A stretch of 44,661 nt of DNA from Arcobacter sp. CECT 8986 (GTDB taxonomy: Bacteria > Campylobacterota > Campylobacteria > Campylobacterales > Arcobacteraceae). The notes under the pieces were generated by a model. It ran no database searches, was not told the origin of the DNA, and saw nothing but the letters and a program-made list of their open reading frames with translations. The DNA lies in contig NZ_PDKG01000013.1 of the NCBI RefSeq assembly GCF_004116725.1, positions 1-44,661 of the forward strand. The letters are read 5' to 3'. Below, in pieces: positions 7,383 to 42,890 of the stretch. A program made the position numbers and the translations under genes. Each line of letters opens with the position of its first letter. The first letter of the stretch is position 1.

Positions 7383-8672
7383 ATGAAGAAATTTCTATTA
7401 GCTTCTTCAATTGCTCTTATTTTTTCACAAGTTGCATTTTCTAATGAGCAAAAAGAGGAGTTACCGCAAAGTAGATTTGAATCATTAACAAAATTAACAC
7501 AAGTTATAGGTACTGTTGAAAAGTACTATGTTGATGATATAAAGCTTGAGGCGATTGTTAATAAAGCAATCAAAGGTTTGATGGAAGAATTAGATGCTCA
7601 TTCAACTTTTTTAGATAAAAAATCTACAAAAGAGATGTCAATTCAAACTAATGGAGAATTTGGTGGTTTAGGTATCACTGTTGGTATGCGTGATGGGGCA
7701 CTAACAATTATCTCTCCAATCGATGGTACACCTGCTTATAAAGCTGGAGTAAAAGCCGGAGATATTATTCTAAAAATCGATAACAAATCAACACTAAACA
7801 TGACTCTTGATGAAGCAGTTGGTCTAATGAGAGGGAAACCTAAGACTAAAATAGATTTAACTGTAGTAAGAAAAGGCGAAAATAAACCTTTAAAGATTAC
7901 TATTACTAGAGATATTATAAAAATTGATTCTGTTTTTGTAAAAACTATAAATAAAGATTTATTATATTTAAGAATTACAAGTTTTGATAAAAATGTTACT
8001 AAAAGTTTAATAGATGGATTAAAAGAACATAAAAATATTAAAGGTATTATTTTAGATTTACGTAATAATCCGGGTGGTCTTTTAACACAAGCAATTGGCA
8101 CTGTTGATTTATTTGTTAACTCAGGTGTTATTGTTTCTCAAAAAGGAAGAGATGTAACGGATGAAGAAAAATTTTATGCAAAAAGTTCAACTACATTAAC
8201 TGATGCACCAATGGTTGTATTAGTAAATGGTGGTTCCGCATCTGCTTCAGAAATTGTAAGTGGTGCATTACAAGACCATAAACGTGCAGTTATTGTGGGT
8301 GAAAAAACTTTTGGTAAAGGTTCAGTTCAAGCAGTATTACCAATTGTAAAAGATAGAAGCGAAAATATTAAATTAACAATTGCAAAATACTATTTACCAA
8401 GTGGAAGAACTATTCAAGCAAAAGGAATTACTCCAGATATTACTTCGTATCCTGGAAAAGCTGTAGCTGATGATGATAGTCAATTCCAAATCAAAGAAGC
8501 AGACTTAAAAAAACATTTAAAGGGAGAATTAGAAAAGGTTGATGGCATAAATAAAAAAGATGATAAAAAATCTAAAGATAAAATGGTTATAACAAATGAG
8601 GATATTGCTAATGACAATCAACTAAATTCGGCAATAAATATTTTAAAAAGTTTAATAATTATGAATAAATGA
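7383..8672 (+). CDS. ctpA: Carboxy-terminal processing protease (S41 family)
   Basis: Secreted serine protease of 429 aa that trims or degrades periplasmic proteins from their C-terminus. A signal peptide (about 1-20, cut near AFS-NEQ) is followed by a PDZ domain (about 90-175, with GGLGITVG) and the S41 catalytic core. In GGSASASEI the likely nucleophile is S287, exactly 25 residues before K312 in TFGKG, the spacing known for the Ser-Lys dyad of E. coli Prc. A TTG at 7377 is in frame, but AAAAGG (7371-7376) is correctly spaced for the ATG at 7383. The stop overlaps a possible ATG for purC at 8669; the gene heads the purine/lipid cluster, an order also found in Campylobacter jejuni as I recall. 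Confidence 0.94.
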   Translation: MKKFLLASSIALIFSQVAFSNEQKEELPQSRFESLTKLTQVIGTVEKYYVDDIKLEAIVNKAIKGLMEELDAHSTFLDKKSTKEMSIQTNGEFGGLGITVGMRDGALTIISPIDGTPAYKAGVKAGDIILKIDNKSTLNMTLDEAVGLMRGKPKTKIDLTVVRKGENKPLKITITRDIIKIDSVFVKTINKDLLYLRITSFDKNVTKSLIDGLKEHKNIKGIILDLRNNPGGLLTQAIGTVDLFVNSGVIVSQKGRDVTDEEKFYAKSSTTLTDAPMVVLVNGGSASASEIVSGALQDHKRAVIVGEKTFGKGSVQAVLPIVKDRSENIKLTIAKYYLPSGRTIQAKGITPDITSYPGKAVADDDSQFQIKEADLKKHLKGELEKVDGINKKDDKKSKDKMVITNEDIANDNQLNSAINILKSLIIMNK

Positions 8673-27902: not shown

Positions 27903-28850
27903 ATGAAATTTATAGTAATAGGAGCTGGCGGAGTAGGTTCATTTTATGGTGTTAAATTAAAAATGATAGGACATAATGTAACTTTTGTAGCAAGAAATGA
28001 GAATTTAGAATATTTAAAAAATAATAAATTGAAACTGACTCATCCAGATTTTTTATTTGAAGATTATGTTGATGCAATATCAATAAAAGAGTTAGAAAAT
28101 ATAGACCCAAGTGATATTGATGCAGTTTTTATTGCAACAAAATCTATGAGTACAAACTCAATATCAAAAAGTTTAGCAAAATGGATAGAAAATAGTAAAG
28201 AGATTCCATATTTTATATCTTTACAAAATGGTGTAGAGAATGAAGATAGAATGTGTGAGTATCTACCAACACACAAAGTTATAGGTGGATTGACAAGACT
28301 TATAGCTGCACATATAATAAAAATTGGAGAAGTTGAATCAGTTGGAGAAGTACAAACAATTTTAGGTGCAATAACTCAAGATAAAAATAGTGATGAATTT
28401 TTAGAATTATTAAAAAAAGAGTTAGATAAAACAAATACAACAACTATACTAACAAATAATATAAAATTAGAGTTATGGAAAAAACTAATTATTAATAATG
28501 GAGTAAATGCAATATGCGCATTACTTGAAGAAAAATCAGGAACATTAATAAATGATGAAAAAACATCTGTTATAGTTTATAATCTTATGAAAGAAGCAGC
28601 TATTGCCTCTCATGCAGTTGATGTTAATATATCTGAAGATGATGCAAATGAAATGTTTGAACTAATGAAAAGTTTTGAATCTATTGTTCCTTCAATGTGG
28701 ATGGACAAAAAAAATAATAGAGATTTAGAGTTGGATGATATATGTGGAGTAGTGATAAAAAATTGTGAAAAACAAGGAATAGATGCATCATATACAAGAA
28801 CAATATCTACTATTTTAGAGTATCAATATAAAAAAATTCAAAAATTTTGA
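27903..28850 (+). CDS. panE: Ketopantoate reductase family protein
   Basis: NADPH-dependent 2-dehydropantoate 2-reductase (pantothenate pathway), 315 aa. The N-terminal nucleotide-binding motif is GAGGVG (7-12), FISLQNGVEN is the family's conserved Asn motif, and the active-site Lys is in ELWKKLIINNGVNA. A C-terminal helical domain (about 180-312) completes the fold. Divergent from maf with its own promoter. It could be a paralogue acting on a related keto acid, as ApbA/PanE members vary in substrate. Confidence 0.88.
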   Translation: MKFIVIGAGGVGSFYGVKLKMIGHNVTFVARNENLEYLKNNKLKLTHPDFLFEDYVDAISIKELENIDPSDIDAVFIATKSMSTNSISKSLAKWIENSKEIPYFISLQNGVENEDRMCEYLPTHKVIGGLTRLIAAHIIKIGEVESVGEVQTILGAITQDKNSDEFLELLKKELDKTNTTTILTNNIKLELWKKLIINNGVNAICALLEEKSGTLINDEKTSVIVYNLMKEAAIASHAVDVNISEDDANEMFELMKSFESIVPSMWMDKKNNRDLELDDICGVVIKNCEKQGIDASYTRTISTILEYQYKKIQKF

Positions 28851-28860
28851 CAAAATGATA

Positions 28861-28901
28861 TAAAAGTTATCTAAAGTCATACTAAAGTCACCTAAATATA
28901 C
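28861..28901. repeat. Tandem 10-11 bp repeats over a -35 region
   Basis: Four successive words in helical phase: TAAAAGTTAT (28861), CTAAAGTCATA (28871), CTAAAGTCAC (28882) and CTAAATATAC (28892). Two copies of CTAAAGTCA are identical at 11-bp spacing. The array lies directly before a TATAAT box, where direct repeats of this period are typical of response-regulator or other activator sites. Confidence 0.55.
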
Positions 28902-28907
28902 TATAAT
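28902..28907 (+). promoter_or_regulatory. -10 box upstream of the AEC cluster
   Basis: A perfect TATAAT directly follows the tandem repeats and predicts a transcript starting near 28914. This would give the AEC gene a leader of about 200 bases, or a separate small RNA. Confidence 0.55.
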
Positions 28908-28917
28908 TACAGCAGTT

Positions 28918-29031
28918 GAAGTAAATGTGAAGTATATTTGTTACTACAAAATATATATACATAGTGTAATTATTATAAACTTATTCTGGATTTTTCTCCC
29001 TCTCCATGATTTTTATTATCACATTTACTTC
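28918..29031 (+). repeat. 114-bp segment bounded by 13-bp perfect inverted repeats
   Basis: GAAGTAAATGTGA (28918-28930) and TCACATTTACTTC (29019-29031) are perfect inverted repeats. Inside, TATATTTG (28933-28940) can pair with CAAAATATA (28947-28955, one bulge), and the right part holds a pyrimidine run TTTTTCTCCCTCTCC (28991-29005). It begins about four bases after the predicted transcription start. It could be a structured leader, a small RNA, or a tiny mobile remnant; no flanking target duplication is seen. Confidence 0.5.
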
Positions 29032-29111
29032 TATCCCTTCATATAAACAAAAATCATAATAAATTATAAATATATTTTTTGCTATATTGTTCTTTTAGAA
29101 CAAGGAATAAA

Positions 29112-30038
29112 ATGGCTCTTTTTTTTATGCTACTTGGTAAAATTATACCCTTATATTTTAATATAGCAATTGGTTATTTATTAACAAAATATTTAAAAGT
29201 AAGAAGAGATATAGTTGCTTTTTTGTTAGTATATATTTTAGGGCCTGCTGTAATACTTTTTGCAACACTATCTATAAAAATTGATTTACAAATTGCTTTT
29301 TTACCTATTATTGTATTTTTATTTGGAAGCTTTTTAGCTTTTTTTGTATTAATAAAACATAGTAAAAAATGGAATGATTCAAGTATTAATACTTTGGCTT
29401 TTACTTGTGGGACAGGAAATACTGGTTATTTTGGTATTCCTTTAGCGATGATACTTTTAGAGCCTCATGTTGTAAATATATTTATTTTTGTAACTTTAGC
29501 TTCATTGTTATATGAAAATACAACAGGATTTTTTATAACTGCAAAAGGTGCTTTTTCTGCAAAACAATCAATATTAAAAATACTAAGATTGCCTTTAGTA
29601 TATGCATTTATTTTAGGTTTAGTATTAAATATTAATGGATTTGAACTACCACAAAAAGTTATTCCTTATTTTGAAAATTTAAAATGGGTATATGGAATAT
29701 TAGGTATGATGATGTTAGGAATGGGTCTAAAAGGTTTTAATTTAGATGAAGACTTTGATAAAAAGTATATAAAAATAGCCTATTTTTACAAGTTTTTTAT
29801 TTGGCCATTATTTATGTTAGTGCTTATTTATTTAGATAAAAATATTTTTATGTATTTAAATAGTGATATTTATGATGTTTTATTTATGATGTCTATCGTT
29901 CCTTTAGCTGGTAATACTGTAACTTTAGCAATATTATTAAAAGCAAAACCTGAAAAAGCAAGTTTTACTGTATTGTTAAGTAATTTAGTATCTGTTATAT
30001 ATATTCCTTTAACTTTAAGTATTTATCAAGGATTTTAA
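29112..30038 (+). CDS. AEC-family transporter (first copy)
   Basis: 308-aa membrane protein of the auxin efflux carrier (AEC/bile-acid-arsenite-like fold) family with about ten hydrophobic helices. The GTGNTGYFGIPLA segment and the C-terminal MMSIVPLAGNTVTLAI, with the broken helices typical of this fold, are conserved. A TTG at 29079 is in frame, but AAGGA lies 5 bases before the ATG at 29112, and the paralogue at 30.6 kb starts at the equivalent residue. Family members export or import carboxylates such as malate; substrate here is unknown. It forms a cluster with a lipoprotein gene and a second AEC gene. Confidence 0.88.
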   Translation: MALFFMLLGKIIPLYFNIAIGYLLTKYLKVRRDIVAFLLVYILGPAVILFATLSIKIDLQIAFLPIIVFLFGSFLAFFVLIKHSKKWNDSSINTLAFTCGTGNTGYFGIPLAMILLEPHVVNIFIFVTLASLLYENTTGFFITAKGAFSAKQSILKILRLPLVYAFILGLVLNINGFELPQKVIPYFENLKWVYGILGMMMLGMGLKGFNLDEDFDKKYIKIAYFYKFFIWPLFMLVLIYLDKNIFMYLNSDIYDVLFMMSIVPLAGNTVTLAILLKAKPEKASFTVLLSNLVSVIYIPLTLSIYQGF

Positions 30039-31549: not shown

Positions 31550-31567
31550 TTTTAGATGAGGTTAATA

Positions 31568-35606: not shown

Positions 35607-37784
35607 ATGAAATTTAAAAAAATACTTTTTATTTTAATACTATTTAACACAATATTTTTATGTGCACAAACTTCAAAAAATATATTAATTTTAAACTCCT
35701 ATCATAAAGGTTTTATATATGGTGATAATATAATTAATGGTATTGAGAATATATATAAAGATGAAGAAAATATAAAAACTGATATTTTATATATGGATTC
35801 AAGAAGAGTCAAAGTTAGAGATTATAAAACTCTTTTATCAAACTTTTATAAGGCAAAATTAGAAAATAGAAAATTTGATATTGTTATTTGTATTGATAAA
35901 TTTGCATATGATTTTGCTATTGATAATAAATCAAAACTTTTTAATAATAGTAAAATTATCTACTCTCAAACAGAAAATAAAAAAATCAATAATCCAAATG
36001 TTTATACAATTAGCTCTAATGTTGATGTAAAAGAGAATATAGAATTTATATATACAGTTATGAAAAAGTTAAAAAAATTATATGTAATAAATAGTTCACT
36101 AGAAAAAGAAAAAACAAATTTAGAAGTAGAAAAAGCATTAACAAAATTAAAAAAACGTTTTGAAATAGATTATATTGAGCACTCATCTATAAATCAACTA
36201 AAACAAAAGTTTAGTGTATATAAAAAAAATGAAGCTATTTTATTTGTAAAATTTTTAGAAGATAATGAATCTAATAGTATAAAAGATACAAATATTATTA
36301 GTTTTATAAAATCTTCACATATTCCTATTTTTGTTGTAGATGATTTATTTTTAAATAAAGGTGTAGTTGGAGGTAAGATTATCTCTTCAAATAAATTGGG
36401 AGAAAAAATTGCAACTTTATCTAAAGATATTTTAGATGATAAAGATGTGAAAAAGTTTTATAAATTAAAGTATGATTATAAGTTTGATAGTTTAGTTTTA
36501 AAAAAATATGCTATCAAACCATACTATTATTACAATAGTTATAAGATTGTAAATAAACCTCAAGACTTTTTTCAAAAACATAGAGACCTTTTTGAAATAC
36601 TATTTTTACTTTTCCCTTTACTTTTATTATTAGTAATTGGGCTTTTACATAATATTTATTATAGAAAAAAGACAGAAAAACTACTTCAAGAGAGAATTGA
36701 TTTTGATGATACTTTATTAAATGCTATTAAAAATCCAATTTTTTGGCAAAATAAAGATGAAAAAATAGTTGATTTCAATAATAAATTTAGTTCAATGTTG
36801 GGTATTTCTGAAGAGAAATTATATTATACAAGTCTAAAAAAATTAAGAAGTTATAAAAGAGCAAGAAGATTACTAGAAGCACTTGAAAAATATAATAAAA
36901 AAGAGAAAGATTCTTTATTTATGTTTGAAACAGAACAAAAAGAGAAGAAAATATATTTAATTAACCAAGCCAAGTTTAAAGATGAAAAATCACAAAGCTA
37001 TGGAACTGTAACTATTTTAACTGATATTACAAAAGAAAAACAGATTGAAAAAGAGAAAGAAAGAAATCAAGAGTTTTTAATACAACAATCAAAACTTGCA
37101 GAAATTGGAGAGATATTCTCAGCAATTGCTCACCAATGGAAAGCTCCACTTCTTGAAATAACAACAATTGCTCAGGAGAGCTTTTATTCAAATGAAGATG
37201 ATGATAAAGAAAGAGAGTCTTATGTAAAAGATATAATGACTCAAGTGAAATATATGAATGATACAATAAATGATTTTCAAGATTTTATAAAGCCTTCAAA
37301 TAAAAAAACAAAGTTTGATATTCATGAGGCAATTACTTCTTTATTAAAAATTATAGACCATAATATTAGATTTAACTATATTGATGTAAATATAGATTTA
37401 AAAGAGAATACAAATGTTGCAGTTTATGGATATAGAAATGAATTTATGCAAAGTTTACTAAATATAATAAATAATGCAAAAGATGAATTAGTAAATAATG
37501 ATTTCAAAAATAGAAAGATATATATAGAGATTTTTAATAAACAAAATAAATTATATGTAAATATAAAAGATAATGCAGGTGGAATAAGCACAAAAAATAT
37601 AGAAACAATTTTTACTCCTTACTACTCTACAAAAAAAGATGGAAGTGGAATAGGTTTATATATGACAAAAGTTATAATAGAAGATAAGATGAATGGTAAA
37701 ATAAGAGTAAAAAATACTAAAATTGGTGCGTGTTTTACTATAATATTGGAGCAGGGAAATGAAAATATTAGCACTAGAGGATAA
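35607..37784 (+). CDS. Sensor histidine kinase with periplasmic ABC-substrate-binding-like domain (module 1)
   Basis: 725-aa membrane kinase. A signal sequence (about 1-20) precedes a periplasmic domain (about 21-325) that opens with NILILNSYHKGFIYGD, typical of ABC_sub_bind-type sensor domains; one membrane helix (about 330-352) follows, then a PAS domain (about 370-480) and the kinase core with H509 in FSAIAHQWKAPL, the N box NIINNAKDE and the G2 box GSGIGLYMTK. The G1 box reads DNAGG rather than DxGxG. It overlaps its regulator gene by 26 bases. The ligand is likely a small molecule related to the convergent dcuB gene, for example a C4-dicarboxylate, but this is inference from position. 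The ribosome binding site is weak. Confidence 0.9.
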   Translation: MKFKKILFILILFNTIFLCAQTSKNILILNSYHKGFIYGDNIINGIENIYKDEENIKTDILYMDSRRVKVRDYKTLLSNFYKAKLENRKFDIVICIDKFAYDFAIDNKSKLFNNSKIIYSQTENKKINNPNVYTISSNVDVKENIEFIYTVMKKLKKLYVINSSLEKEKTNLEVEKALTKLKKRFEIDYIEHSSINQLKQKFSVYKKNEAILFVKFLEDNESNSIKDTNIISFIKSSHIPIFVVDDLFLNKGVVGGKIISSNKLGEKIATLSKDILDDKDVKKFYKLKYDYKFDSLVLKKYAIKPYYYYNSYKIVNKPQDFFQKHRDLFEILFLLFPLLLLLVIGLLHNIYYRKKTEKLLQERIDFDDTLLNAIKNPIFWQNKDEKIVDFNNKFSSMLGISEEKLYYTSLKKLRSYKRARRLLEALEKYNKKEKDSLFMFETEQKEKKIYLINQAKFKDEKSQSYGTVTILTDITKEKQIEKEKERNQEFLIQQSKLAEIGEIFSAIAHQWKAPLLEITTIAQESFYSNEDDDKERESYVKDIMTQVKYMNDTINDFQDFIKPSNKKTKFDIHEAITSLLKIIDHNIRFNYIDVNIDLKENTNVAVYGYRNEFMQSLLNIINNAKDELVNNDFKNRKIYIEIFNKQNKLYVNIKDNAGGISTKNIETIFTPYYSTKKDGSGIGLYMTKVIIEDKMNGKIRVKNTKIGACFTIILEQGNENISTRG

Positions 37785-38415
37785 TGAAAGGCTTTTAAAG
37801 CTTATAAAAAGTTCTTTAGAAAAAGAAGGGTATGAAGTAGATTGTTTTTCAAATGGTGATGATGCTTTAGATGTATTAGAAAATGGTTATAACTGTTTTA
37901 TACTTGATATAAATGTACCATCAATTGATGGACTAACATTATTAGAGTATATAAGAGCTAAATCATCTGATGTTCCAGTTCTTATTATAAGTTCAAATCA
38001 TGATTTAGAAAAAATAGAGAAATCATATAAGTTTGGATGTAATGACTATATTAAAAAACCTTTTTATATTATTGAGTTAGTTGAAAAAGTAAAAAAGATG
38101 TGTAGTCCTAAATCTAATAAATTTGAATTATGCGAAAATACTGTATTTGATTTAAAAGAGCATAAGTTATATATTGATGGTGATGAGGTAGAACTTACTA
38201 AAAAAGAGATACTTTTTTTAGAACTATTTGCACAAAATCTTAATAAAATCGCAAGCTATGATGAAATGATTGATTATGTATGGCAAGGTGAAGAGACAAA
38301 TCTTACAAATATAAGAGCAATGATAAAAAGACTTAGAAAAAAACTTCCTACTGATAGTATTGTTATTGTAAAAGGGATGGGATATTCATTAAATAAGAGT
38401 GCAAAATTTATATAA
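37759..38415 (+). CDS. OmpR-type response regulator (module 1)
   Basis: 218-aa DNA-binding regulator, partner of the overlapping kinase. Receiver domain about 1-118 with E7-D8, phosphoacceptor D50 (ILDINVP), S78 and K100; winged helix about 128-213 with the recognition helix NIRAMIKRLRKKLP and final GMGYSL. The binding site CAGGGA precedes the ATG. Over residues 1-101 I count 67 identities with the module 2 regulator, and the recognition helices differ at only one position in that 14-residue stretch. A hairpin overlaps the stop codon. The likely target is dcuB or its own operon, by position. Confidence 0.93.
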   Translation: MKILALEDNERLLKLIKSSLEKEGYEVDCFSNGDDALDVLENGYNCFILDINVPSIDGLTLLEYIRAKSSDVPVLIISSNHDLEKIEKSYKFGCNDYIKKPFYIIELVEKVKKMCSPKSNKFELCENTVFDLKEHKLYIDGDEVELTKKEILFLELFAQNLNKIASYDEMIDYVWQGEETNLTNIRAMIKRLRKKLPTDSIVIVKGMGYSLNKSAKFI

Positions 38416-38437
38416 GAGGAAGAACCTCTTATATAAA
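38407..38437. terminator. Hairpin overlapping the stop of the module 1 regulator
   Basis: TTTATATAAGAGG (38407-38419) pairs perfectly with CCTCTTATATAAA (38425-38437) with a five-base loop; the TAA stop (38413-38415) is inside the stem. No long T tract follows. The same hairpin, slightly shorter, overlaps the module 2 regulator stop at 42885-42910. Confidence 0.65.
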
Positions 38438-38514
38438 AGTAAGATTTAGTATTTGATTTTTAAGTAGCACAAGTCCGCGTTTGCTAAATTAAAGAACTTA
38501 ATACTAAAGCAAAT

Positions 38515-38545
38515 TAAAAAAGCAAAGAGAAAATAGTTTCTCTTT
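38515..38545 (-). terminator. Rho-independent terminator of dcuB
   Basis: On the minus strand, 8 bases after the dcuB stop, AAAGAGAAA and TTTCTCTTT (plus-strand 38524-38532 and 38537-38545) form a 9-bp stem with a four-base loop, followed by GCTTTTTT. Confidence 0.82.
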
Positions 38546-38553
38546 AAACTTTC

Positions 38554-39897
38554 TTAGATAATTCCGTAGATTTTTGCTAGGATAAATCCTACAGTTGAAG
38601 CAGTACCTACTCCAATGATACCTGGGATAATGAAACTGTGATTGATAACAAATTTACCAATTCTTGTTGTACCAGATCTATCGAAACTAATAGCTGCTAA
38701 GTCACTTGGGTAAGTTGGTAAAATATAGTACCCATAACAAGCAGCAGCAAATGCAGCAATTACACCAGGATCAACACCAACAGATAATGCAATTGGAACA
38801 ATCGCAGCTAATGCAGCACCTTGTGAGTTAACAAGTTTAGAAACAAAGATTAATACTAATGCATATGCCCATGGATATTGAGCAACAATCCCACCAAGTA
38901 CTTCTTTGATATCACCAATGTGTGCACCAAACATAGTTTTAGTCATCCAAGCTACACCATATACCGCAATAAGTGCAACCATACCTGATTTAAATACTTC
39001 GTTACTTGAAATTGCAGAAGGTTTAACTTTAGCAACAACAAAGATAATAGCACCAGCTGTTAACATAAACATTTGAATAACATAAACCATAGATAGAGGT
39101 TTACCATGAATTACTGGTCTTAATTCTGGGAACGCACCTAAAATAGCAACTACCGCAATTGAAGCAAGGAAAATCCACATTGCATTCCATTGAGTTTGAG
39201 GTAATTTGTTATTTAATAATGTTTTATCTTCACCATAAATGTATTTTTTCATTTCTGGGTCTTTAATTTTTTCTTGGAATTCAGGATCATCTTCTAAGTT
39301 TTTACCTCTGAACATACTCCAGAAACCGATAACTAAAACACCACAGATAGCACCTGGAATTGTGATTGATAGTAATTGAACTAAGTCTAATTCTTTACCA
39401 TTAATCATCGCATGACCTGATAACATTGCAACTAATGAAACAACTGCAACTGATACAGGAGATGTAATAATACCCATTTGAGCTGCAATTGTACTTGCTG
39501 CCATTGGTCTTTCTGGTCTTACCCCTTTTCTAATAGCAATGTCATAAATAATTGGTAACATTGTATATACTACGTGACCTGTACCACAAAGGAAAGTTAA
39601 AGTTAACGTAGTTAACGGAGCTAAGAATGTAATATGTTTAGGATGTTTTCTTAACAATTTTTCTGCTAATTGAAGCATAACATCTAATCCACCTGATGCT
39701 TGTAAAGTTGCACCAGCAGTAATAACTGCAAGCATTACTAACATAACTTTAATTGGAGGGTTACCTGGAGTCATCCCAAATCCAAAAACAAGTACAACAA
39801 CACCGATACCACCGAATAAACCTAATGCTAAACCACCTTTTCTAGCACCAAGGAATAATACGGCCAAAACAATGATTAATTGAATTGTAAATTCCAT
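38554..39897 (-). CDS. dcuB: Anaerobic C4-dicarboxylate transporter DcuB
   Basis: 447-aa inner-membrane carrier, usually exchanging fumarate or other C4-dicarboxylates for succinate during fumarate respiration. It matches E. coli DcuB closely by eye from the start ([25 protein letters not shown]) through [32 protein letters not shown] and [18 protein letters not shown]. Codon use has more C-ending codons than the neighbours, suggesting strong expression. It converges on the module 1 regulator and diverges from the module 2 kinase across a 174-bp gap with inverted repeats. RBS AAAGGA. Confidence 0.95.
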
Positions 39898-39943
39898 AAT
39901 TTGTCCTTTAATTTTACATATGTGAATATGTATTCATATTGGA

Positions 39944-39949
39944 ATTGTA
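39944..39949 (-). promoter_or_regulatory. Possible -10 box of dcuB
   Basis: TACAAT on the minus strand, in CATATACAATTCC, lies 47 bases before the dcuB ATG. The inverted repeat at 39961-39976 would cover its -35 position. Confidence 0.4.
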
Positions 39950-39960
39950 TATGGCTAATA

Positions 39961-39976
39961 TGTCATTAGTATGACA
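39961..39976. promoter_or_regulatory. Candidate operator TGTCAT-TAGT-ATGACA
   Basis: A perfect 6-bp inverted repeat with a four-base spacer in the divergent gap between dcuB and the module 2 kinase. It is richer in G/C than its surroundings and sits where the dcuB -35 box would be. A likely regulator site, but which protein binds is unknown. Confidence 0.45.
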
Positions 39977-40019
39977 AATTGAAAAATTTATAAAATAATC
40001 AAACTTAATTTTAAAATTA

Positions 40020-40041
40020 ATACTAAATTAAGATTTAGTAT
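40020..40041. promoter_or_regulatory. Inverted repeat overlapping the module 2 promoter
   Basis: ATACTAAAT (40020-40028) and ATTTAGTAT (40033-40041) form a perfect 9-bp inverted repeat with a four-base spacer; its right arm enters the -10 box. The word AAGATTTAGTAT also occurs at 38441-38452, just after the module 1 regulator, with an opposing AATACTAAA near 38500. Confidence 0.4.
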
Positions 40042-40044
40042 AAT
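40039..40044 (+). promoter_or_regulatory. -10 box of the module 2 kinase-regulator operon
   Basis: A perfect TATAAT in TTTAGTATAATTAAT lies 28 bases before the preferred ATG at 40072. Confidence 0.55.
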
Positions 40045-40071
40045 TAATATAGTATTGTGTATAATAATTAC

Positions 40072-42237
40072 ATGAGAAAGATTATTTTATTTTTATTTTT
40101 TATCAATATACATCTATTCGCATATTCTGTACTTATTATTAATTCATACCATAAAGGTTATCAATGGGGTGATAAAGTAATAAAAGGCTTAGAAGATGTT
40201 TTAGTTCAAAAAGATTATATTGATTTTAATATACTTTATATGGATTCAAAAAGAATATCTTCAAAAGAGTATTTTGACAGTTTAAAAAACTTATATAAAA
40301 TTCAATTAAAAAATAGAAAATATGACTTAATAATTCCTATTGATAGATTTGCGTATGATTTTGTTGTTGAAAATTATCAAGACCTTTTTAAAAATGAGCC
40401 TATTTTAGCTGTTGGTATAGAGAAATTTTCCCATGAAAAAGTAAGGAAATATTCATTAGAAGATAAAGTATCTGCAATTTTAGAGAAAAGAGACCTCTTT
40501 GGTAATGTGGATATGATAGAAAAAAACTTTTATAATATAAAAAAACTATATATTATAAATGACAAAAGTATAAATGGAAAACATACAGAACCACTAATAG
40601 AAAATCTAATAAAAAATTTCAAAAATAGAATAAAATTAGAATATATAAAAGAAGATGATTTATCCTCTTTAAAAAATTATCCTTTTGAAATTGATAGTGC
40701 TGGGTTATTTATTAGATTTTATAAAAATAAAAATGGAAAATTAAATAAAAATAGTGAAATAATTAATTTTATAAAAAACTCAAAAATTCCTATATTTGTT
40801 ACAGACTCCTTATTTGTTGGTAAAGGTGCAACAGGTGGAAAAATTGTAGATTTATATAAATTAGGAAAAGAATCAGGTGAAATGGCTTTAGAAATATTAG
40901 GTGGAGCTGAAGCTAGAATAACTACTTATAAAGAGTTTGAATACTTTTTTGATTATCAAAAGTTAAATGAGTTTTTACTTTCAATTGTAAATTTATCAGA
41001 GCCATATACTATTGTTCATAAAAAGAAAACATTCTTTGATAATTACAGAACACTTATTGATTTTGTTTTTACAATTTCTCCTTTATTGGTATTTTTAATT
41101 TTAGGATTGATTCATAATATATATAAAAGAAAGAGTTTAGAAAAAGATTTAAGAAAAAGAATTGAATTTGATGCAACAATGTTAAATGCAATTGATAGTC
41201 CAATTTTCTGGCAAGATGCTGAAGGTAGAATTGTTGATTCAAATAATACTTTTTGTAATTTACTAGAGTTATCTTCTGATTATTTATATGGAAGAAAGCT
41301 TATTGATTTAAAAGATAATCATAATGTAAAACAAATAGTAAGAATGATAAGTAATTACACTTTAAATAAAAACAATAATGAATTTAATTTTGTAGATAAA
41401 AATAATAATAAAAAAATCTACTTAATTAAACAGGCAAAATTTAAAGAACAAAAAATAAAATATGAAGGTTATGTGACTATTTTTACTGATATTACAAGGG
41501 AAAGAGAGATTATTTTAGAAAAGCAAAAAAATAGACAATTTGCTATTCAACAAAGTAAACTAGCTGAAATTGGTGAGATATTCTCTTCTATTGCACATCA
41601 ATGGAAAACACCGTTAATTGAGATAACTGCAATTGCTCAAGAACTTTTTTATACAAGAAAATCAAAATCACAAAATATAAATGAAGATGATAGTTTTGTT
41701 AAAGATATTATGCAACAAGTAACTTATATGACTGATACTATCAATGAATTTCAAAAGTTTATTATGCCTTCAAATAAGAAAGTAGATTTTAATATTGAAG
41801 AAGCAATCGAAACAATGCTTGAAATAGTTAATCATAATTTAAAGTATAATAATATAAAAATGTCTTTGAATATTGAAGAGGGTACAAATTTAATTGTACA
41901 TGGATATAAAAATGAAGTAATGCAGTCAATTTTAAATATAATAAATAATGCAAGGGATGCACTATTAAATAACTATTATAAAGATAGAAAAATTGAAATA
42001 TCTCTTTTTAATGAAAAATCAGATTTAATTATAAAAATAATTGACAATGCAAAAGGCATAAATACAAAAAATATAAATAAAATTTTTGAACCATATTATA
42101 CAACAAAAGAGAAAGGACATGGAATAGGCTTGTATATGACAAAAGTAATAATTGAAGATAAAATGAATGGTAAAATATCAGTTGAAAATGTAGAAAGGGG
42201 AGCTATGTTTACAATAAGGTTGGCACAAAGAAGATGA
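40072..42237 (+). CDS. Sensor histidine kinase with periplasmic ABC-substrate-binding-like domain (module 2)
   Basis: 721-aa paralogue of the kinase at 35607 with the same architecture: signal sequence, periplasmic binding domain opening VLIINSYHKGYQWGDKVIKG (about 20-325), one membrane helix (about 335-355), PAS domain, and kinase core. The phospho-His is H509 in FSSIAHQWKTPL, the same number as in the first copy. N box NIINNARDAL, G1 box DNAKG (not DxGxG), G2 box GHGIGLYMTK. A GTG at 40057 is in frame, but the ATG at 40072 starts the signal sequence properly. It overlaps its regulator by 4 bases. The ligand is unknown; the convergent amino-acid symporter hints at an amino acid or organic acid. 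Confidence 0.9.
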   Translation: MRKIILFLFFINIHLFAYSVLIINSYHKGYQWGDKVIKGLEDVLVQKDYIDFNILYMDSKRISSKEYFDSLKNLYKIQLKNRKYDLIIPIDRFAYDFVVENYQDLFKNEPILAVGIEKFSHEKVRKYSLEDKVSAILEKRDLFGNVDMIEKNFYNIKKLYIINDKSINGKHTEPLIENLIKNFKNRIKLEYIKEDDLSSLKNYPFEIDSAGLFIRFYKNKNGKLNKNSEIINFIKNSKIPIFVTDSLFVGKGATGGKIVDLYKLGKESGEMALEILGGAEARITTYKEFEYFFDYQKLNEFLLSIVNLSEPYTIVHKKKTFFDNYRTLIDFVFTISPLLVFLILGLIHNIYKRKSLEKDLRKRIEFDATMLNAIDSPIFWQDAEGRIVDSNNTFCNLLELSSDYLYGRKLIDLKDNHNVKQIVRMISNYTLNKNNNEFNFVDKNNNKKIYLIKQAKFKEQKIKYEGYVTIFTDITREREIILEKQKNRQFAIQQSKLAEIGEIFSSIAHQWKTPLIEITAIAQELFYTRKSKSQNINEDDSFVKDIMQQVTYMTDTINEFQKFIMPSNKKVDFNIEEAIETMLEIVNHNLKYNNIKMSLNIEEGTNLIVHGYKNEVMQSILNIINNARDALLNNYYKDRKIEISLFNEKSDLIIKIIDNAKGINTKNINKIFEPYYTTKEKGHGIGLYMTKVIIEDKMNGKISVENVERGAMFTIRLAQRR

Positions 42238-42890
42238 AAATACTACTTTTAGAAGATAACGAAAGATTGTCAAGTGTAATAAAATATGCTTTATTAGATG
42301 AAGGATACAGTGTAGATTGTTTTTTTGATGGTGATGATGCATTAGATTCTATTGGTAATGGATATGCTTGTTTTATTCTTGATATAAATGTACCTAACTC
42401 TGATGGAATATCAATTCTTGAATATATAAGATTAAATCATAGCAAAATTCCTGTTTTAATAATTAGTTCAAATCACGAGTTAGATAAAGTTAAAGAATCT
42501 TATGAAAAAGGTTGTGATGATTATTTAAAAAAACCATTTTATATTATTGAACTTCTTCAAAAAGTAAAAAAATTATGTGGAGATAGAAAACAGTTTTTAA
42601 TTTTTGATGAAACTTGTAAATATAGCTTTATTGACCATAGATTATATAAAAATGAAGAAGAGATAGAATTAACTAAAAAAGAGATTTTATTTTTAGAATT
42701 ATTTGCTAGAAATATCCATTTTGTAGCAACTTATGATCATATTGAGGAGTATGTTTGGGAAGGTGAAGATACAACACTTGCAAATATACGTTCTATGATA
42801 AAAAGATTAAGAAAAAAATTACCAACAGATAGTATAACAATTATTAAAGGAATAGGGTATTCTTTAAATAAAACAGTGAAGTTTATATAA
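42234..42890 (+). CDS. OmpR-type response regulator (module 2)
   Basis: 218-aa partner of the preceding kinase and paralogue of the module 1 regulator, same length and same key residues (E7-D8, D50, S78, K100). Winged helix with recognition segment NIRSMIKRLRKKLP and GIGYSL, ending KFI as in the first copy. Start by ATGA overlap with the kinase gene. The near-identical DNA-reading helix suggests the two regulators bind similar sites and may cross-regulate. A hairpin overlaps the stop. Confidence 0.93.
   Translation: MKILLLEDNERLSSVIKYALLDEGYSVDCFFDGDDALDSIGNGYACFILDINVPNSDGISILEYIRLNHSKIPVLIISSNHELDKVKESYEKGCDDYLKKPFYIIELLQKVKKLCGDRKQFLIFDETCKYSFIDHRLYKNEEEIELTKKEILFLELFARNIHFVATYDHIEEYVWEGEDTTLANIRSMIKRLRKKLPTDSITIIKGIGYSLNKTVKFI

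Follow-up and report, generated by a model that had tools for sequence, protein, structure and literature searches.

The segment at positions 28918-29031 of the window, the whole stretch of 44,661 nucleotides from Arcobacter sp. CECT 8986 (contig NZ_PDKG01000013.1) that was analysed, most likely encodes a small regulatory RNA with its own gene, as judged from sequence comparison. We consider it likely that this is a stand-alone, trans-acting RNA, which is driven by a regulator and whose C/U-rich loop pairs with the starts of acetate genes. An earlier sequence-only reading of the DNA had proposed a small RNA with a C/U-rich loop aimed at ribosome-binding sites, and this proposal is now well supported by comparison across genera. 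The element and its immediate surroundings contain the following features.

28873-28890, + strand: direct repeat AAAGTCA-N4-AAAGTCA (11-bp), invariant in six species, with a geometry shared with other genera
28902-28907, + strand: -10 element TATAAT, predicted start at about 28914; seen in the sequence and invariant in six species
28918-29031, + strand: body of the small RNA, with the 13-bp stem closing it; invariant at 111 of its 114 positions, fold z -3.72
28918-28930, + strand: 5' arm of the closing stem; compensatory pairs, two in G019/G115 (by eye) and many in sister genera
28987-28990 and 29003-29006, + strand: UGGA/UCCA hairpin stem around the C/U-rich loop, from the fold
28991-29002, + strand: C/U-rich loop UUUUUCUCCCUC, the presumed base-pairing site; from the fold, invariant, with equivalent loops in g15, g10 and the sister genera
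29019-29031, + strand: 3' arm of the closing stem; many sister-genus homologues have a T run after it, not clearly so in the window
29083-29088, + strand: TATATT preceded by TG, probably a separate AEC promoter; seen in the sequence and kept in relatives
29112-30038, + strand: gene for an AEC-type membrane transporter adjoining the element (Pfam Mem_trans)

The two ends of the segment had been read as perfect 13-bp inverted repeats, and GAAGTAAATGTGA (28918-28930) and TCACATTTACTTC (29019-29031) are indeed exact reverse complements. TATAAT is located upstream of them at 28902-28907 (+), so transcription is predicted to start at about 28914; the segment thus begins some four bases past the predicted start, as had been claimed. 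A simple sigma-70 scan, which also wants a -35 hexamer, did not list this promoter because it has no such hexamer. No terminator-like site was found by a simple scan of 28500-29500, and a transcript end is accordingly not evident for the window itself. The inverted repeat by itself is only mildly unusual. Counting repeats with at least 4 G+C and a gap of at most 110 nt, there is one in the window vs a mean of 0.08 in shuffles, and 5 of 100 shuffled windows contain one or more; without the G+C condition there are 4 vs a mean of 1.1 (30 shuffles). The fold of 28912-29040 has an energy of -24.7 kcal/mol (z -3.72) that none of 200 shuffles equals; the opposite strand folds well too (z -3.18; 1 of 200 as good). 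The statement that the C/U-rich run is unpaired held only in part: TTTTTCTCCCTCTCC (28991-29005) is C/U-rich, but its first 12 bases are predicted to form a hairpin loop on a TGGA/TCCA stem, so the run is not entirely unpaired.

The element was present upstream of the AEC gene in all six genomes of the window's genus (g1, probably Malaciobacter), where the copies were found by DNA similarity. In the six-species alignment 111 of the 114 positions are identical and one species has a single-base insertion; TATAAT and the direct repeat AAAGTCATACTAAAGTCA are invariant as well. The sequence flanking the element can hardly be aligned among these species, and the neighboring AEC proteins share 76-93% identity with the AEC protein of the window. 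The fact that 111 of 114 positions are invariant while the flanks diverge establishes that the element is real. Note that in the assembly of G003 a contig break falls within the element (L012 and L028; contigs C73 and C78), and the two contigs overlap there by about 99 bases.

A further 30 Arcobacteraceae genomes yielded diverged homologues, 26 of them through a covariance model and four by eye, and related elements stand upstream of AEC orthologues in other genera. At the start of the g15 element (G019, G115 and G116) are TATAAT and GAAGTAAA; its interior is longer, and it carries the loop CCUUUCUCCCU. By eye, its closing stem in G019 and G115 has two pairs exchanged on both sides and one mismatch. 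The element of G014 (g10) is similar to the g15 form. Inspection by eye identified all four: for G019 and G115 it was combined with a short DNA match, and G116 and G014 were recognized from their place, box, stem and loop. In the sister genera g6 (G119 is Poseidonibacter lekithochrous) and g11 (Aliarcobacter; its member G063 is listed as Arcobacter caeni) the element takes a compact form of about 75-85 nt.

The covariance model, R1, was built from 13 compact-form (g6/g11) sequences. A search of 104 family genomes, with filters that lose weak matches, gave one match each in 26 (15 g11, 9 g6, 1 g3 and 1 g18). Loci L095, L102 and L108, which were omitted from the first alignment after being misplaced by MAFFT, were all recovered by R1. 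Together with the six g1 and the four g15/g10 genomes, the element is found in 36 of 104 genomes, a lower bound for diverged forms. Because R1 does not find the g1, g15 or g10 forms, their grouping with the R1 type is based on shared anatomy and place and not on model score; on these grounds they appear to belong together. The upstream regions of AEC genes were read at 30 loci and in 40 further stretches, a part of all AEC matches.

Some related observations were made along the way. In the Colwellia MAG DT_18 (L421, about 1900-2001) an AEC gene of the same family is preceded by a stretch like the end of the g15 element (3' arm and tail), where R1 finds nothing; several Colwellia records carry the same AEC type, which suggests gene transfer. 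In g14 (L134, L135) a similar type of box, TCATACATATTTCATACAT, stands before the AEC gene itself, and no element was seen between the two. Upstream of the RNA in Aliarcobacter and Poseidonibacter is a permease-like gene of about 430 aa (L102:2590-3891, - strand, and homologues) with no Pfam match above cut-off.

The search for covariation in relatives that the sequence-only reading had proposed was positive for the closing stem. On the 26 sequences, aligned by fitting to the R1 model, 89.0% of the pair cells are standard and 41 cells are changed on both sides, vs 12.7 in shuffles; none of 500 shuffles reaches 41, and sliding the structure by 1-3 columns leaves no more than 12 such cells. The closing stem has double changes in 7 of 12 pairs and 94.8% of its cells paired, and this covariation points to a conserved RNA structure of the sort expected for a base-pairing small RNA. 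The inner stem is weaker (78.9% of cells paired), and RNAalifold unaided predicts the closing stem only. The loop CUUUCUGCUUCCU is identical in 25 of the 26 sequences and has one inserted base in the remaining one. A T run, probably a terminator, follows the closing stem in many sister-genus homologues but not in all (it is absent, for example, from G118, G121 and G007).

In the sister genera the loop is complementary to the ribosome-binding sites of genes for acetate uptake and acetate activation. Searching 10 genomes for its reverse complement with at most 2 mismatches gave 692 matches vs 506 for the reversed pattern. Thirty matched loci were retrieved, of which 10 were the RNA gene itself; among the other 20, four (G065, G087, G007 and G010) fell on the ribosome-binding site and start of a DUF485 gene, and the rest were mostly intragenic. 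One DUF485 gene was read in G010, where it is followed by actP (cation/acetate symporter).

Paralogue B of DUF485 was read in 19 of the 26 compact-RNA genomes; G076, G077, G078, G081 and G121 were left unread, and G061 and G117 yielded paralogue A alone. GGAAGCA precedes the ATG of paralogue B in 18 of the 19 (G069 has GGGAGCA). The duplexes with the loop have energies of -12.9 to -23.0, values which ignore accessibility. Fifteen genomes were scored against 4 to 29 control starts each, and paralogue B beats all of these in 14; in G060 two of 11 control starts are as good. In 18 of the 19 genomes at most 5 of 300 composition-shuffled loops match it; in G069, 32 do. Loops from other genera lose the pairing (in g6 it falls from -19.5 to about -6.5), a loop-swap specificity which holds for the sister-genus loop only. 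Pairing with paralogue A varies among genomes, being strong in some (G010 -21.3, G069 -20.3, G117 -19.2) and weak in others (G122 -6.7, G065 -6.3).

The same kind of complementarity exists at pta. In 12 of 19 genomes its start carries AGAAAGGAU(A/G)AC, which is complementary to the 5' half of the loop, UAUCCUUUCU; three have the variant AGAAAGGAUUAC and four lack AGAAAGGA. The pattern picked up the pta start for scoring in 12 of the 19, and the remainder were read by eye. For ten of the 12 scored starts no more than 3 of 300 shuffled loops do as well; for G063 and G080 the numbers are 51 and 146. G064, which is without the RNA, keeps AGAAAGGA at pta (-11.5). A site at ackA occurs in some genomes (G010, G007, G118 and G120) and is missing from most others. 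Complementarity between loop and target was found in the sister genera for DUF485-actP, at the 3' half of the loop, and for pta. Many Poseidonibacter and Aliarcobacter genomes have acetate clusters with two to three acetate-kinase paralogues within a few kilobases (L442-L457).

In the window's own genus the link to acetate is only suggestive. It is from here that most of the support comes for another explanation, namely that the RNA does pair in trans but that its acetate sites are fortuitous, since C/U loops pair with any Shine-Dalgarno sequence, and that its true targets are others. The energies in this genus are near those of shuffled loops: for DUF485-A, 73-202 of 300 shuffled loops are as good, and 18 of 164 other starts of the window's own genome score as well. 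DUF485-B was found in three of six species (G001, G003 and G004), with -17.0 to -18.6 and 22-30 of 300 shuffled loops as good. One acetate-kinase (ackA) paralogue reaches -15.4 to -20.2 in all six species, with 3-41 of 300 shuffled loops as good. Every C/U-rich loop tried pairs with the sites of g1 and g10, which are G-rich. Two g19 genomes in which no RNA was found still score -13.6 at DUF485-B with the sister-genus loop, a result that counts against specificity. Against fortuitous pairing, a C in the DUF485-B site faces the G of the loop in all 19 sister-genus genomes read, and GGAAGCA is absent from this site in all five Aliarcobacter genomes without the RNA that were read. Taking both sides together, we regard fortuitous acetate sites as unlikely.

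Other searches in the genus of the window and in g15 added little. A search of six genomes of the genus for GGAGAGGGAGAA gave fewer matches than the reversed pattern in every one, and of 30 such loci retrieved, one (G003) was at a ribosome-binding site, with no recurrence in another species. The response-regulator gene at 37759 scores -17.5 with the loop; it was dropped as a target because this score is kept in only two of five species. G019 and G115 (g15) carry the element, and no DUF485 gene was found there. Because the loop is frozen in the window's genus, its conservation argues for further targets there.

There is also a small chance that the RNA acts mainly by binding a protein, as a sponge or a 6S-like RNA, and not by base pairing. 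Its closed-stem architecture would suit such a role, as would the fact that the whole body is frozen within the genus, beyond the needs of a pairing loop. Yet the loop matches the actP and pta sites specifically in the sister genera, and no Rfam family was matched: Rfam 15 gave no hit of any family up to E 5 in 28850-29130, and none at curated thresholds in 15 homologous loci. The absence of a 6S match in the former search led us to reject 6S RNA. Elsewhere in the window, 8058-8362 (-) gave an unexpected Rfam match to Rp_sR47, a Rickettsia small RNA (62.4 vs a cut-off of 60 bits).

Even less probable is the structured 5' leader of the AEC transporter gene, an attenuator or riboswitch-like element, which the sequence-only reading had named as an alternative. 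AEC does come directly after the element in g1 as well as in g15 and g10, and so it does in 16 of the 26 R1 genomes; readthrough into AEC is possible in the window, where no terminator-like site was found. However, AEC retains a promoter-like sequence of its own (by eye), and in the other 10 R1 genomes (G010, G118, G121, G076, G077, G007, G065, G060, G061 and G022) no AEC gene follows. The next gene there is convergent and, by its likeness to the gene at 31556 in the window, probably encodes an NlpC/P60 lipoprotein. In these 10 the element does not stand in the 5' untranslated region of an AEC gene, which excludes an obligatory leader role, and the leader or riboswitch was discarded. In addition, many homologues have a T run behind the stem, which suggests that the transcript ends there. 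The convergent neighbor in 10 of 26, a box and -10 element in register and this T run are what a gene with its own promoter and end should have.

The remaining suggestion of that reading, the remnant of a small MITE-like mobile element, is extremely improbable: its terminal inverted repeats are perfect, but the search for further copies that was to reveal a mobile origin found a single full copy in the own genome, R1 gave one match per genome in 26 of 26, and the stem covaries.

The small RNA gene, as preferred here, has a promoter box of two half-sites 11 bp apart, which ends 11 bp before the -10 element. This direct repeat is probably the box of a response regulator; an excerpt of PMC4415409 describes the same architecture for PhoB boxes. 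Control by PhoB was rejected as unlikely because 13 family pstS upstream regions (L194-L207) carry a different box, with repeats of the GTAACC type and not GTCATA/ATCATA. The Pho box of the family appears to be GTAACC-N5-GTAACC with 11-bp spacing.

A pattern of box plus -10 element was searched in 18 genomes. It recovered the small RNA promoter exactly in 12 and with one mismatch in four, and did not recover it in G019 and G116. The box pattern exceeded its reversed control in 17 of the 18 (not in G117), with a small margin in several (G000, 8 vs 6). A one-mismatch box recurs before LutA/LutB-type lactate oxidation genes; downstream of these are genes for a sensor kinase, which has an ABC substrate-binding domain, and for an OmpR-type regulator. 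Such a one-mismatch box also recurs before a DctP TRAP transporter with an FAD-linked dehydrogenase (GlcD-like, below cut-offs). Further boxes of this kind stand before lactate permease in the own genome, before formate dehydrogenase gamma subunit, and before a DASS transporter with a kinase/regulator pair that is 8 kb from the small RNA in Poseidonibacter. The box of the window's genus resembles those of dcu, DASS and formate dehydrogenase; the Poseidonibacter/Aliarcobacter box resembles the lactate boxes. Within the window the relevant features are these.

35607-38415, + strand: sensor kinase (35607-37784) and OmpR-type regulator (37759-38415), candidate controller; open reading frames, the regulator by Pfam and the kinase by likeness
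39961-39975, - strand: box GTCATACTAATGACA upstream of the DcuA/DcuB gene (38554-39897), first half-site the same as in the small RNA promoter
40057-42890, + strand: second sensor kinase (40057-42237) and OmpR-type regulator (42234-42890); family matches below curated cut-offs

The DcuA/DcuB gene is thus located between two kinase/regulator pairs (35607-42890), the second of which is divergent from it. The GTCATACTAATGACA box upstream of dcu is also present in two of four other species examined. A scan of the window for the box alone was at chance level (35 vs 36).

Taken together, these data suggest the following mechanism. The OmpR-type regulator of an organic-acid-sensing two-component system would bind the 11-bp repeat and drive transcription from TATAAT. 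The RNA would fold by its long closing stem, which is probably also its terminator, and display the C/U-rich hairpin loop. In the sister genera this loop would pair with Shine-Dalgarno and start regions, with DUF485-actP through its 3' half and with pta through its 5' half. Such pairing should block ribosome entry, and therefore acetate uptake and activation would be held down while another organic acid is sensed. Genome comparison supports the structure, the stand-alone gene, the shared box and the complementarity in the sister genera; from these we infer the expression of the RNA, an activating regulator, repression as the direction of regulation and the same targets in the species of the window. 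Whether the element defines a new Arcobacteraceae small-RNA family that acts as a carbon-source switch under organic-acid two-component systems, with a loop (about 19 nt) that serves several genes of one pathway through its two halves (the 3' half DUF485-actP, the 5' half pta and sometimes ackA), we judge to be an even bet.

If this is true, the Arcobacteraceae gain a defined small RNA that has a promoter box and a structure and whose targets can be tested, and it suggests how these bacteria rank organic acids. The Aliarcobacter species that miss both the RNA and the actP site are a ready natural control. An excerpt of Stav et al. 2019 (PMC6429828) reports unnamed structured intergenic motifs of Arcobacter sp. 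L, confined to Arcobacter, which may include the element. With this reservation the small RNA is most likely previously undescribed: the literature excerpts retrieved on small RNAs of Arcobacter, Aliarcobacter, Malaciobacter and Campylobacterota, on an actP sRNA and on carbon-source small RNAs held no description of it (some searches were uninformative), nor did they mention a carbon-hierarchy small RNA for the Arcobacteraceae.

Among known systems, RepG of Helicobacter pylori is alike, as far as the excerpts of its description go, in that its C/U-rich hairpin loop base-pairs with a G-rich run ahead of a coding region. It differs in lying between hp1043 and hp1044, in using its terminator loop and in targeting the tlpB G-repeat; its authors, in the same excerpts, report no homologue beyond Helicobacter, Arcobacter being among the groups searched. 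With neighbors and targets that differ, the likeness, which is drawn from the description and not from a sequence alignment, should be taken as an analogy only. Spot 42 and SdhX are enteric small RNAs of carbon metabolism that repress metabolic and transport mRNAs by base pairing, and SdhX targets ackA. They belong to a different bacterial group with different regulators, and homology to them was compared through Rfam scans only. In the CbrAB-CrcZ system of Pseudomonas, according to the abstracts and excerpts retrieved, a two-component system likewise drives a small RNA that sets the order of carbon sources. CrcZ works by titrating the Hfq/Crc repressor, whereas direct antisense pairing with acetate mRNAs is predicted for the RNA described here.
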